32,663 bases of DNA from Bacteroidota bacterium (lineage in GTDB: Bacteria; Bacteroidota; Bacteroidia; Palsa-948), in the NCBI GenBank assembly GCA_003164895.1, contig PLUL01000007.1, forward strand, positions 1-32,663. The letters are read 5' to 3'. Positions 27,111 through 32,603 of this stretch are shown here, one piece after another. Numbering within the stretch: the first letter of the stretch is position 1; each line of letters opens with the position of its first letter. The notes under the pieces were generated by a model. It did no database searches, was not told the DNA's origin, and saw only the letters and a program-made list of their open reading frames with translations. Made by a program: the position numbers and the translations under genes.

Positions 27111-27812
27111 TCAGGAAAGAAGTTTGAATCCTCTTCCGTGAATATTTAGAATTTCAACTTTCGAATCTTCCTTAAGATATTTTCTAAGCTTGGCAATGTA
27201 AACATCCATGCTTCGCGCAGAAAAATAGGAGTCGTTCTGCCATACGGAACGCAGCGCGAAATTTCTATCAAGCACATCGTTGGAGTTGAGACAAAGAAGT
27301 TTCAGCAGGTCGGATTCTTTCGTTGTGAGTTCGGTCTTTTTTCCTTTTATCTCCAGTGTGCGCTCGGTGGAATTGAATTTATATTTCCCGACTTTGAATT
27401 CATCCGTTTCGTTCTGAATGAGCGTTTGATTTTTTACTCTGCGCAGGATGGCATTAATTCTCAACAGCAATTCCTCCATGCTGAACGGCTTTGTGATATA
27501 GTCATCTGCTCCTGCGGTAAATCCTTCGATCGCATCTTCCTTCATTGATTTCGCAGTAAGAAAAACAATAGGAACATTTTTGTCTGATGCCCGAATTTCT
27601 TTTGCGAGCGTAAATCCATCCTTCACGGGCATCATCACATCCAGCAGACACATATCAAATTTATTTTTGGAGTTAGAGAAGAAATCGTATGCCTCTTTCC
27701 CGTTTACAGCAAGTTTTACATTATACCCTTTTGCTTCAAGATATTCCCGAAGCAGATTCCCAAGATTGCGATCGTCCTCTGCAAGGAGGACTGAAATTTT
27801 TTCTGTGCTCAT
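27111..27812 (-). CDS. rprY: RprY-like response regulator (OmpR/PhoB family), 233 aa
   Basis: The receiver domain has the acidic pair in AEDD (11-14), phospho-acceptor Asp58 in CLLDVMMP, Thr near 86 (FLTAKS) and Lys near 108 (YITKPFS). The C-terminal winged helix has KGKKTELTTKESDLLKLLCLN and MDVYIAKLRKYLKED. The receiver sequence, with NLGNLLREYLEAKGY and KDGFTLAKEIRA, is very close to RprY of Bacteroides and Porphyromonas. The gene starts inside the kinase stop (ATGA overlap, 27809-27812), so the two are translated together. The TTAAC array at 29421-29457 upstream of the kinase is a likely target. Confidence 0.9.
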   Translation of the reverse strand: MSTEKISVLLAEDDRNLGNLLREYLEAKGYNVKLAVNGKEAYDFFSNSKNKFDMCLLDVMMPVKDGFTLAKEIRASDKNVPIVFLTAKSMKEDAIEGFTAGADDYITKPFSMEELLLRINAILRRVKNQTLIQNETDEFKVGKYKFNSTERTLEIKGKKTELTTKESDLLKLLCLNSNDVLDRNFALRSVWQNDSYFSARSMDVYIAKLRKYLKEDSKVEILNIHGRGFKLLS

Positions 27813-29380
27813 ATTTTTTGATTTTCCCCTTCAGAGAAGGGCATAAATATTTTAAACGTACTTCCTTTTCCAACTTCACTTTCCACCGTAATAGTTCCTC
27901 CGTGTTTTTCCGCAGCGGCTTTCACATAACTCAAACCAAGTCCGAATCCTTTCACGTTATGAATATTTCCGGTTGGAACGCGGTAAAATGTTTCAAATAT
28001 TTTTTTCTGGTTTTCTTTGCTGATGCCTATGCCGTTATCTGCAACAGAAATTTGAATTCCATTGTTTATATTTTCAGTGGAAATTTTTATCATGGGTTTG
28101 TGTTCAGAATATTTCAAGGCATTGTCAACCAGATTGTAAATGATATTCGTAAGGTGTACTTTGTCTGCATTTAAAATATTTTTTTTTGCATTTTTCTCAA
28201 GACGAATTTCTCCTTCGCGTTTTTCAACCTGTAAGCGAATATTGCTAATGGCTCGGTCAATAATTTCATGAACATCCACTTCCTGAGGGCGAAGTTTGAA
28301 TTGCCCTTTATCCAGCACTGCGGTTTGCAGAATATTTTCAACGAGCAACCCAAGTCGTTGATTTTCTTCTTTAATGATACGAACGTAGTGATTCACATTT
28401 TCTTTTGATTTTTCTATGGAAGAATCACTTAGCATTTCGCTGGCAAGAGAAACAGTTGAAATGGGAGTTTTCAGTTCATGCGTCATGTTATTGATAAAAT
28501 CATTTTTTATGTCTGAAAGTTTTTTCTGTTTCAAAATAGTGGTAACGGTAAAGTAAAAAGAAAAAACAATAATCAAAACTAATATTCCTGAACCGGTAAG
28601 CATCAGCCACATGGTTTGCAGGATGTAATTTTTTTCTGAAGCAAAATATACTGCAAGATATTTTGGCGCAACAAATACATTGTTCGGAGAAAGGTTGACC
28701 TTATATGAAGAATTCAGAATTTCCTTTTGAGATTCTTCTTTGGTGTTGATCGGAAAATATTTGTAGGTATTATTGAATATTCCAAATTCATATTTCGCTT
28801 TTATGCCATTGTCCAAAAGTTCCGCCCTAAGCATAGAATCAATTTCAAGTGTATCAATTTTGTCATTGTATCCTTTGTAAATATTTATGCTCACGAGTTC
28901 GTCAAAAATATCACTCACCATATCGGATTGTTTTATCATCCATCGAAAGCGGTCATCCGAAGAATCAACTCGCGTGATGGTGAACGGTTCTCCAGCTCCG
29001 GCATTTACATTCACTCCAATTTCCGATGAATCTTTCGTTACAATTTTATTTCTTGTTTTATGCAGAACAACTCCTGCGGAATCGGTGGTAAGGTCTTCAA
29101 AAATTTTTATTGATTTCGTACTGTCGCCTCGCAGGGAATCGGCATGCGTCATCCAGCGCATTCCTTGTTTGCGGAAGCTCATGCGCCTTTTAATTTTTGT
29201 AGCTTCATTTTGTTTTTCCAGTTTATATTCCAAACTGTTTAATGCCTCATTTACTCCGAGAGAAAAGTGTTGCTGCTTTAACGTGAAAGCATTGTTGATC
29301 CAGTAAAGTTGAGTAACTATTAAACCCACCAGTGCAATGGCGGTAAGTGCAGTGATCAAACGGATGCTGAGGTTTCCCAT
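27809..29380 (-). CDS. rprX: RprX-like sensor histidine kinase, 523 aa
   Basis: Two membrane segments (about 9-28 and 254-279) flank a periplasmic region of about 225 residues that may sense a signal. The kinase core follows: H-box FINNMTHELKTPISTV with phospho-acceptor His301, N-box NLVDNALKYS, G1 DNGIGIS and G2 GFGLGLSYV, ending in VGKGSTFKIFMP. It pairs with rprY through the 4-bp overlap. A -7 box TACATTTG ends 5 nt before the ATG. The signal of this system is unknown here; RprXY in Bacteroidetes is tied to stress responses in a few studied species. Confidence 0.9.
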   Translation of the reverse strand: MGNLSIRLITALTAIALVGLIVTQLYWINNAFTLKQQHFSLGVNEALNSLEYKLEKQNEATKIKRRMSFRKQGMRWMTHADSLRGDSTKSIKIFEDLTTDSAGVVLHKTRNKIVTKDSSEIGVNVNAGAGEPFTITRVDSSDDRFRWMIKQSDMVSDIFDELVSINIYKGYNDKIDTLEIDSMLRAELLDNGIKAKYEFGIFNNTYKYFPINTKEESQKEILNSSYKVNLSPNNVFVAPKYLAVYFASEKNYILQTMWLMLTGSGILVLIIVFSFYFTVTTILKQKKLSDIKNDFINNMTHELKTPISTVSLASEMLSDSSIEKSKENVNHYVRIIKEENQRLGLLVENILQTAVLDKGQFKLRPQEVDVHEIIDRAISNIRLQVEKREGEIRLEKNAKKNILNADKVHLTNIIYNLVDNALKYSEHKPMIKISTENINNGIQISVADNGIGISKENQKKIFETFYRVPTGNIHNVKGFGLGLSYVKAAAEKHGGTITVESEVGKGSTFKIFMPFSEGENQKI

Positions 29381-29385
29381 CAGTA

Positions 29386-29393
29386 CAAATGTA
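29386..29393 (-). promoter_or_regulatory. -7 box TACATTTG of rprX
   Basis: TAnnTTTG on the minus strand, 5 nt before the rprX ATG (29380), predicting a leaderless or near-leaderless message. The TTAAC array lies 28 bp further upstream. Confidence 0.6.
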
Positions 29394-29420: not shown

Positions 29421-29457
29421 TTAACATTTTTTAACATTCATTAACGGAGCGTTAACA
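29421..29457. promoter_or_regulatory. Four TTAAC direct repeats, 10-11 bp apart (response-regulator binding array)
   Basis: On the plus strand TTAACA (29421), TTAACA (29431), TTAACG (29441) and TTAACA (29452). OmpR/PhoB-type regulators bind such repeats side by side, one helical turn apart; the unit is close to the TTAACA Pho box of Bacillus PhoP. It lies between rprX and the promoter at 29479, with the last unit at the -33 position of that promoter. Confidence 0.65.
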
Positions 29458-29478
29458 TGCAATAGCCAACTTGCACTG

Positions 29479-29486
29479 TATGTTTG
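29479..29486 (+). promoter_or_regulatory. -7 box TATGTTTG of the structured RNA
   Basis: TAnnTTTG on the plus strand, 21 nt after the last TTAACA unit. No ordinary -33 TTTG is seen, which fits a promoter needing an activator bound at the TTAAC array. Confidence 0.55.
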
Positions 29487-29490
29487 TACT

Positions 29491-29609
29491 GAAGAACAAA
29501 AGAAATGCAACAGCAAAAAAGTCATCATTGAAAATTTATCCCACCTAAAAAGAGCAATCAATGATGTGAGTAGTCCCGCACATAACTATGTGCGGGATTT
29601 TCTTTTTTA
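29491..29609 (+). ncRNA. Candidate small RNA or attenuating leader, about 115 nt
   Basis: The region between the -7 box at 29479 and the terminator at 29574 has no long frame but can fold. CATCATTGA (29523-29531) pairs with TCAATGATG (29558-29566), leaving a 26-nt loop containing CCCACCT, and a strong terminator hairpin follows. An eight-codon frame MQQQKSHH (29505-29531) ends inside the first stem, so a leader-peptide attenuator is possible. The aldehyde dehydrogenase ATG (29623) comes 13 nt after the T-run, so the element is either a separate sRNA or a leader controlling that gene. Confidence 0.5.
29574..29609 (+). terminator. Strong rho-independent terminator
   Basis: TCCCGCACA (29574-29582) pairs with TGTGCGGGA (29589-29597) with a 6-nt loop, followed by TTTTCTTTTTT. 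It stands directly before the aldehyde dehydrogenase start. Confidence 0.9.
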
Positions 29610-29622
29610 CTAAATTTACTTT

Positions 29623-31065
29623 ATGCAAAAAATTAAAAATTATATCAACGGAGAATTAATTGAACCGGTTGGAAAAAAATATCTGAATAATTATAATCCT
29701 GCTACAGGAAAAGCATATTCATTAATTCCTGATTCGGATGAAAAAGATGTTCAGAGGGCAGTCGATGTTGCGGAGGCAGCTTTTCCAAAATGGTCACATA
29801 CTTCAAAAGAGGAACGATCAAAAGTGATGATGAAAATTGCCGATCTCATTGATGAAAATTTTGAAAAACTTGCCGTTGCTGAATCTACCGATCACGGCAA
29901 ACCGATATGGTTGGCAAAAATGGTTGACATTCCTCGCGCCTCTGCCAATATGCGTTTTTATGCAACTGGCATTTTGCATTTTGCATCGGAAGCACATTCA
30001 ATGGAAGATTCGGCAATCAATTATACGTTGCGTGAACCCATCGGAGTTGTCGGTTGTATTTCTCCATGGAATTTTCCATTATATCTTTTCACATGGAAAA
30101 TTGCACCAGCACTTGCATCGGGATGCACCGTGATTGCAAAGCCAACAGAAATTACTCCGATGACCGCTTATCTTTTTTCCGAGCTATGCATCGAAGCCGG
30201 ATTGCCGAAAGGAGTTTTAAATATTGTTCACGGATTGGGAAGTAAAGCAGGAGCTGCTATTGTTTCTCATTCTAAGATTTCCGCCATTTCATTTACCGGT
30301 GGAACAAAAACAGGAGCAGAAATCGCACGGACTGCTGCACCGATGTTCAAAAAGCTTTCGCTCGAACTTGGAGGAAAAAATCCAAACATCATTTTTGCGG
30401 ATTGTAATTTTGATAATGCAGTAAAGACAAGTCTTAACTCTTCTTTCTCCAATCAAGGTGAAATTTGTTTGTGCGGTTCCAGGATATTTATTGAAAAACC
30501 CATTTACGAAAAATTCAAAACAGAATTTGTTGCAAAAACAAAAGCGATGAAGGTTGGAAACCCTTCGGACGATTCTAACAAACTCGGAGCAATCGTTTCA
30601 AAGCAACATTTCGAAAAGATCCTTTCATATATCGAACTTGCGAAAAAAGAAGGCGGCAAAATTTTATGCGGAGGAAATGCAGTGAAACCGGGAGAAGAAT
30701 TTTCAAACGGCTGGTTCATCGAACCTACCGTGATCGAAGGATTGTCTTATGATTGCAGAACCAATCAGGAAGAAATTTTCGGACCGGTTGTTACGCTCAC
30801 TCCTTTTGAAACTGAAGAAGAAGTTTTGAAATACGCTAACTCCACTGTTTACGGTTTATCTGCCACCATCTGGACGGAAAATCTGACGCGTGCACATCGC
30901 ATGGCTGCAAAAATTCAATCAGGAATTATCTGGATCAACTGCTGGCTGGTGCGAGATTTAAGAACTCCATTTGGCGGCATGAAAGGAAGCGGGGTGGGAC
31001 GTGAGGGCGGTTTTGAAGCGCTTCGCTTTTTCACCGAGCCCAAAAATGTGTGTGTGAAATTATAA
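29623..31065 (+). CDS. Aldehyde dehydrogenase, muconic-semialdehyde dehydrogenase-like, 480 aa
   Basis: An NAD(P)-dependent enzyme that oxidises an aldehyde to an acid. ISPWNFPLYLFTWKIAPALASG forms part of the cofactor site, SFTGGTKTG the Rossmann turn, LELGGKNPN the catalytic Glu, and FSNQGEICLCGSR the catalytic Cys (Cys282). The C-terminus WLVRDLRTPFGGMKGSGVGREGGFEALRFF matches 2-aminomuconate/2-hydroxymuconate semialdehyde dehydrogenases (ALDH8 group). No kynurenine or meta-cleavage genes are nearby, so the true substrate is uncertain. A TAAATTTA near -7 box ends 4 nt before the ATG. Confidence 0.9.
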   Translation: MQKIKNYINGELIEPVGKKYLNNYNPATGKAYSLIPDSDEKDVQRAVDVAEAAFPKWSHTSKEERSKVMMKIADLIDENFEKLAVAESTDHGKPIWLAKMVDIPRASANMRFYATGILHFASEAHSMEDSAINYTLREPIGVVGCISPWNFPLYLFTWKIAPALASGCTVIAKPTEITPMTAYLFSELCIEAGLPKGVLNIVHGLGSKAGAAIVSHSKISAISFTGGTKTGAEIARTAAPMFKKLSLELGGKNPNIIFADCNFDNAVKTSLNSSFSNQGEICLCGSRIFIEKPIYEKFKTEFVAKTKAMKVGNPSDDSNKLGAIVSKQHFEKILSYIELAKKEGGKILCGGNAVKPGEEFSNGWFIEPTVIEGLSYDCRTNQEEIFGPVVTLTPFETEEEVLKYANSTVYGLSATIWTENLTRAHRMAAKIQSGIIWINCWLVRDLRTPFGGMKGSGVGREGGFEALRFFTEPKNVCVKL

Positions 31066-32075: not shown

Positions 32076-32603
32076 TTAAAAAAGTTTACTTTTTAGTTTT
32101 GTTTCTATGACTTCTTTTATTGCTTTTTGTTCTACCTGCAAACTACCAATGGCTTTGGTTAAAGCTGTCAGTTCCTGTTTGCTTTCATCATTGATTTTTT
32201 GTTGGGACTGGCGTAAAAAATCCATCTGTTTTTTGTGGTTATCCACTTGAAGATTTGCATGATGATTGACACCTTTTATCACTTGATCGAAGCGTTCGGA
32301 CTTGGGTAATATATTTAACGCTTCGTCTAATTTTCGGGTTAAAATAATCAACTGATCGAGCAGCGGATTCAATTTTTCCTGCTCATGCGTTTTGATATAA
32401 GCGACAACTTGTCCGACTCTTGTTACTAATTCTTTCATCACTTTGTGCGGACTTTCATTCTCGGATTTGCTTGGGTCTATACCCGTTTTTTTAAAGTACA
32501 CCGCGCTGTGTTTTACAAATTCTCCTAACTCCATATTAAGAGTTTTGCTGAGTGTTTTTACGTCAGCGTGGGTTTGTGCATTAACGGCTATTGTTCTCCT
32601 CAT
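32076..32603 (-). CDS. BfmA/BtgA-like mobilization protein, 175 aa
   Basis: The N-terminus (RRTIAVNAQTHADVKTLSKTLNMELGEFVKHSAVYFKKTGIDP) has the compact, RHH-like start of the BfmA/BtgA family, proteins that help a relaxase at oriT of Bacteroidetes mobilizable transposons. The rest is a long coiled-coil-like helical part (LDQLIILTRKLDEALN, QELTALTKAIGSLQVEQKAIKE). It overlaps the end of the gene to the right by 23 bp in another frame, so the two are coupled. The match is by family character and not by a search. Confidence 0.7.
   Translation of the reverse strand: MRRTIAVNAQTHADVKTLSKTLNMELGEFVKHSAVYFKKTGIDPSKSENESPHKVMKELVTRVGQVVAYIKTHEQEKLNPLLDQLIILTRKLDEALNILPKSERFDQVIKGVNHHANLQVDNHKKQMDFLRQSQQKINDESKQELTALTKAIGSLQVEQKAIKEVIETKLKSKLF

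Follow-up and report, generated by a model that had tools for sequence, protein, structure and literature searches.

A conserved TTAAC repeat array as the probable operator of a bidirectional promoter beside rprXY-type genes in Bacteroidota

An array of four TTAAC repeats, situated between an rprX-like sensor kinase gene and a divergent promoter, very probably serves as operator for a bidirectional promoter under the control of the adjacent RprY-like response regulator. Comparison across genomes establishes the conservation of the array, its spacing, its modularity, its linkage to rprX and the deletion of a gene behind it in the lineage studied here; binding by RprY, activation as the direction of control, autoregulation and a function of the product are what we infer. 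In the proposed arrangement, the four half-sites, lying one helical turn apart, would accommodate two dimers of the regulator. One of them, on repeats 1 and 2, would act on the rprXY promoter, whose -7 box is 27 nt away, thereby providing autoregulation, and the other, on repeats 3 and 4, would cover the place of a missing -33 element and bring RNA polymerase to the divergent TATGTTTG promoter. A secreted or surface protein would be made from this divergent promoter in most relatives, plausibly an output or feedback partner of envelope sensing, comparable to cpxP beside cpxRA. In the lineage of the window (the whole stretch of 32,663 nucleotides that was analysed), from which the coding part of this gene has been lost, the promoter would now make a short terminated RNA from the gene's 3' end. 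The array and the divergent promoter comprise the following elements:

29421-29425, forward strand: repeat 1, TTAAC, assigned to the putative rprXY-side module from the sequence and relatives
29431-29435, forward strand: repeat 2, TTAAC, assigned to the same module, the pair of repeats 1 and 2 being kept at loci without a divergent promoter
29441-29445, forward strand: repeat 3, TTAAC, assigned to the putative divergent-promoter module from the sequence and relatives
29452-29456, forward strand: repeat 4, TTAAC, standing where a -33 element would be expected, with 22 nt between it and the -7 box
29479-29486, forward strand: divergent -7 box TATGTTTG, recognized from the sequence and from a 22-nt gap at all nine four-repeat rprX loci

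The four in-phase repeats described in an earlier note on this DNA were confirmed at these positions and found to be conserved in relatives. Spaced by 10/10/11 bp and running head-to-tail, they form direct repeats about one helical turn apart, as in the tandem operators of OmpR/PhoB-type regulators. The gap between repeat 4 and TATGTTTG is 22 nt when counted from TTAAC and 21 nt when counted from TTAACA, the latter being the count originally given. In Bacteroidota, the main sigma factor uses TAnnTTTG as its -7 box (PMC9723704). No TTTG-type -33 element is visible before TATGTTTG, in line with the absence already remarked upon, and repeat 4 is found there instead. Across the window, TTAAC is rarer than expected, with 55 sites compared with 92 in shuffled sequence. 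Within the genome itself, three TTAAC spaced by 4-6 nt gave a single other match, whose spacing differs from that of the array, and the reversed control pattern gave one match as well. The array itself occurs nowhere else in this genome. An Rfam search of the window returned no match at the array locus. A two-repeat site with a -7 box at G000:C59:22414-22458, at the end of rnpA and before a yidD look-alike, was set aside as probably a product of chance.

The operon on the other side of the array is organized as follows:

27809-29380, reverse strand: rprX-like sensor histidine kinase, 523 aa, with HisKA and HATPase_c domains
27111-27812, reverse strand: rprY-like OmpR/PhoB-type response regulator, 233 aa, with Response_reg and Trans_reg_C domains
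29386-29393, reverse strand: rprX -7 box TACATTTG, 27 nt from repeat 1 and at the same place in relatives

The rprX and rprY reading frames overlap by 4 nt, and an RprX-type kinase thus adjoins the regulator, as is characteristic of RprY. The best NCBIfam model for the regulator is RprY itself (NF051850); since its score of 329.5 bits lies below the cut-off of 370, which no more than 8 of the 295 genomes sampled from the class exceed, the protein is here named RprY-like. Among 36 RprY proteins from array-bearing loci, the recognition-helix motif RSMDV...RK was found to be at least 95% invariant. Between TACATTTG and the rprX start codon there are 5 nt, a distance that makes the rprXY mRNA probably leaderless or nearly so, and short distances are common in relatives. 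In Porphyromonas gingivalis, RprY binds its own promoter, which fits autoregulation; it has also been described chiefly as repressing stress genes, which counts against the activation model (PMC3646045). No RprY consensus, operator or TTAAC site was found in the literature searched. Near the contig end, positions 32076-32603 of the window encode a BfmA/BtgA-type mobilisation protein (NF041200, 45 bits against a cut-off of 24), a hint of an integrated mobile element.

Conservation of the array before rprX in relatives, which the earlier note had named as a check, was assessed on rprX homologues that were picked from diverse families by protein similarity only, and 28 loci had enough upstream DNA. 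In-phase TTAAC repeats, defined as two or more repeats set at intervals of 10 or 11 bp in the 250 bp upstream, were present at 23 of these loci, as compared with 0.33% of shuffles, and were lacking at the other five. TTAAC is a short A+T-rich word and could as such recur through base composition; nevertheless, a chance or compositional origin of the array is excluded for all practical purposes by the shuffles, by the reversed control pattern and by the conservation. Loci with two repeats mostly keep 26-29 nt between repeat 1 and the rprX -7 box, and on the opposite side they lack a TAnnTTTG at 22 nt. Four exact repeats spaced 10/10/11 occur at nine loci, every one of which carries a divergent TAnnTTTG exactly 22 nt past repeat 4; at locus L022 the third repeat is degenerate and the 22-nt gap is retained. 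The array thus keeps a set position relative to the core promoters, 22 nt from the divergent -7 box and, at most loci, 26-29 nt from that of rprX, as expected of a tandem operator that covers the upstream promoter element or lies shortly before it. This modularity provides the strongest argument that repeats 1 and 2 serve rprXY and repeats 3 and 4 the divergent promoter, and it backs the original proposal that one array controls both the regulator operon and a divergent transcript. Bacteroides-like genomes have at most a TTAAC pair or a differently spaced pair upstream of rprX, namely in-phase TTAACCTGAATTAAC (L253) or TTAACCTGATTTAAC (L254), and at neither of these two loci was a divergent promoter found at 22 nt.

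The same architecture was recovered by genome scans. When 295 Bacteroidia genomes were scanned for a three-repeat pattern followed by a -7 box, with the gap left free at 5-40 nt, the pattern was found in 49 genomes, the reversed control pattern matched once, and the gap was exactly 22 nt at about 40 of 54 sites. All 49 array genomes are among the 242 that have an RprY-type regulator and none is among the 53 without one (hypergeometric 2e-5, a value that is indicative only, the species being related). A GTDB-wide scan, in which 84,980 species were represented by a single genome each, revealed at least 118 stretches with the array architecture. Among the 80 matches listed, all belong to Bacteroidota save one labelled Chlorobiota, the genera include Pedobacter, Pontibacter, Roseivirga, Flagellimonas, Carboxylicivirga and Alistipes, and 47 have an rprX homologue no more than 150 bp away. 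The genome scan suggested in the earlier note has thus yielded TTAAC arrays at a fixed distance from TAnnTTTG boxes. Furthermore, among 113 distinct cores that show canonical spacing, 96 have an exact repeat 1, on which the scan pattern made no demand, 10 or 11 bp away from repeat 2. Of the 113 cores, 82 are linked to rprX and have its -7 box at an almost constant distance, and the remaining 31 have no detectable rprX adjoining. Comparison of the canonical cores revealed no conserved -33 element at either promoter, as expected for activator-dependent promoters.

That about a quarter of the canonical cores are unlinked to rprX, that some arrays precede dapF or lipoprotein genes, and that TTAACa resembles the Bacillus PhoP box would all accord with a site for another OmpR/PhoB-type regulator (e.g., PhoB-like), or for a factor outside the two-component systems, that controls rprXY from without. 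We regard this alternative as quite improbable, since the site tracks rprX in most canonical cores (82/113) and at most similarity-chosen rprX loci (23/28), since the array is absent from the 53 sampled genomes lacking an RprY-type match, and since autoregulation by an adjacent regulator is the usual arrangement, P. gingivalis RprY itself binding its own promoter (PMC3646045). Control by the adjacent RprY-like regulator is therefore preferred. As to the unlinked arrays, Flagellimonas-type and related genomes (L148, L150, L158, L168) carry a canonical array before a lipoprotein-like gene away from rprX, and such genes are candidates for further members of the regulon. In family f54 (L078, L079, L080, L081, L083), a TTAAC array with another distance to the -7 box precedes a gene that we take, judging by its sequence, to be dapF.

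An exported protein is the product of the first divergent gene in most relatives. Such proteins typically combine a signal peptide with a motif resembling VKxIxIxNGDTTIxE, and several also have a type A sorting domain of the T9SS; in some cases the next gene is the aldehyde dehydrogenase that is also seen in the window. In the window, the corresponding region contains the following features:

29491-29613, forward strand: predicted short terminated RNA, in which the divergent start region is joined to the 3' end of the deleted gene
29512-29535, forward strand: what is left of the final codons (S K K V I I E) of the deleted secreted-protein gene, from alignment with the genomes G003 and G006
29539-29545, forward strand: UCCCACC in the loop of a hairpin whose stem pairs 29523-29531 with 29558-29566, shared with G003 and G006, where it belongs to the 3'UTR of the intact gene
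29574-29608, forward strand: intrinsic terminator, a GC stem and T run, from sequence and fold
29623-31065, forward strand: aldehyde dehydrogenase gene, behind the terminator; it adjoins the array in several other families too

The RNA start at 29491 was placed by reference to the -7 box, and the fold of the RNA has a z-score of -5.2, mostly owed to the terminator. The secreted-protein gene is intact in G003 and G006, which belong to the genus of the window, and the window RNA aligns with its last codons, 3'UTR and terminator. This alignment indicates that the coding part of the gene has been deleted in the window lineage and that the promoter reads into the old 3' end. No copy of the gene was found elsewhere in the window genome, where only the common sorting domain gave matches, and a search for paralogues of the RNA in the same genome gave none that convinced. 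The structured RNA that the earlier note had placed under control of the array holds as a predicted divergent transcript; the original product was a secreted protein, and the RNA is what the deletion of its gene left behind.

Comparison with the sister genome G005, which shares the deletion, bears on whether this RNA still matters. There, repeat 4 and the divergent -7 box have been lost, and identity to the window is 100% over repeats 1-3, 66% from repeat 4 to the start of the aldehyde dehydrogenase gene and 85% within that gene. A UCCYACC segment near the terminator, conserved in G003, G006 and the window, has decayed in G005. Taken with the origin of the RNA in the terminal codons and 3'UTR of a gene that is intact elsewhere in the genus, these differences make us lean slightly towards a relic, that is, a divergent promoter that in the window makes a non-functional RNA, with only repeats 1 and 2 still of importance, for rprXY. 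Against this stand the intact repeats 3 and 4, 22-nt gap, -7 box and terminator of the window, the conservation of the UCCYACC segment in G003 and G006, and the recurrence in other families of stand-alone RNAs behind the same promoter. A decaying remnant is the simplest reading of the comparison between the window and G005, although the promoter, hairpin and terminator are intact in the window. Such a relic adds to the operator explanation and does not exclude it.

In several other families, the array promoter leads into no gene; a short stretch closed by a terminator comes after it, and stand-alone RNAs are predicted there. Within one Flavobacteriales family, the predicted RNAs have UUCCUGUUUAGUUAGUGCAA in common next to the terminator. 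When ten Flavobacteriales genomes were compared, perfect complementarity of 17-26 nt was found between this RNA and the 3'UTR of a gene that we take to be dnaA, named by its sequence rather than by family search. By contrast with these genomes, no complementarity longer than 9 nt exists between the window RNA and dnaA of its own genus. It might be that the RprY-controlled promoter drives a regulatory RNA, either as a 3' mRNA end or free-standing, that has outlived the protein gene in several lineages, and that in one Flavobacteriales group its conserved core of 16-21 nt pairs perfectly with the 3'UTR and terminator of the dnaA mRNA; we consider this reading possible but rather unlikely. If true, the pairing would couple the sensing of envelope stress to the initiation of replication; the complementarity is seen at the level of sequence, and any function assigned to it is a guess.

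Several observations on these sequence elements deserve a record of their own. The dnaA 3'UTR/terminator has UUGCACUAACUAAACAGG(AA), a perfect complement, over 17-26 nt, of the array-promoter RNA in the same genomes (L263, L264, L265, L267, L273, L277, L281, L286, L296, L306 and L309-L324). In addition, the 16-nt element of these RNAs, TGTTTAGTTAGTGCAA, lies beside terminators in the 3'UTRs of genes that, judging by eye, we take to be PspC-like and outer-membrane-protein-like (L269, L270, L272, L278, L279, L282, L289, L299, L303, L305), with at most seven exact copies per genome. These copies suggest a possible family of 3'UTR-derived RNAs. In the order of G172, the element occurs reversed in the dnaA 3'UTR in 16 of 46 genomes, representing three genera, and all of them carry the element elsewhere too.

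Known systems offer partial parallels. In Bacillus subtilis, PhoP, a member of the OmpR/PhoB family, recognizes a Pho box of TTAACA direct repeats, four of which lie upstream of activated promoters. The regulator family is shared with the window, as are direct repeats resembling TTAACA at intervals of about one helical turn; the phylum, the sigma-factor promoter type (here a -7 TAnnTTTG) and the pitch (11 there, 10/10/11 here) differ, and PhoP is not an orthologue of RprY. The resemblance to the Pho box pointed out previously hence extends to sequence and spacing and stops short of ancestry, the window regulator scoring best on the RprY model. The cpxRA/cpxP system of Escherichia coli is similar in layout, as a two-component operon and a divergent envelope-protein gene are expressed from a common intergenic region. 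There, the 3' end of the divergent cpxP mRNA yields the RNA CpxQ (PMC4817254), an example of how such an end can give rise to an RNA. Unlike cpxP, the divergent gene here often codes for a protein bearing a T9SS sorting domain, or else a stand-alone RNA stands in for it, and four TTAAC half-sites take the place of the CpxR box. The pairing of regulator and kinase is of the same type as in RprXY of Bacteroides fragilis, where rprX/rprY were found essential (PMC4072883), and as with RprY of P. gingivalis; the Bacteroides-like genomes checked differ in having a pair of repeats at most, without the four-repeat array and divergent target.

Altogether, the arrangement would work like a tandem operator of the OmpR/PhoB family set in an operon layout like that of cpxRA/cpxP. 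RprXY-type systems are widespread in Bacteroidota, and no operator sequence for them was found in the literature searched. The spacing rule TTAAC-N5/6-TTAAC-N5-TTAAC-N6-TTAAC-N22-TAnnTTTG offers a directly testable candidate for the RprY site, and, for many species, it points to the gene that would serve as the system's output, be it one for a secreted protein or for a short RNA.
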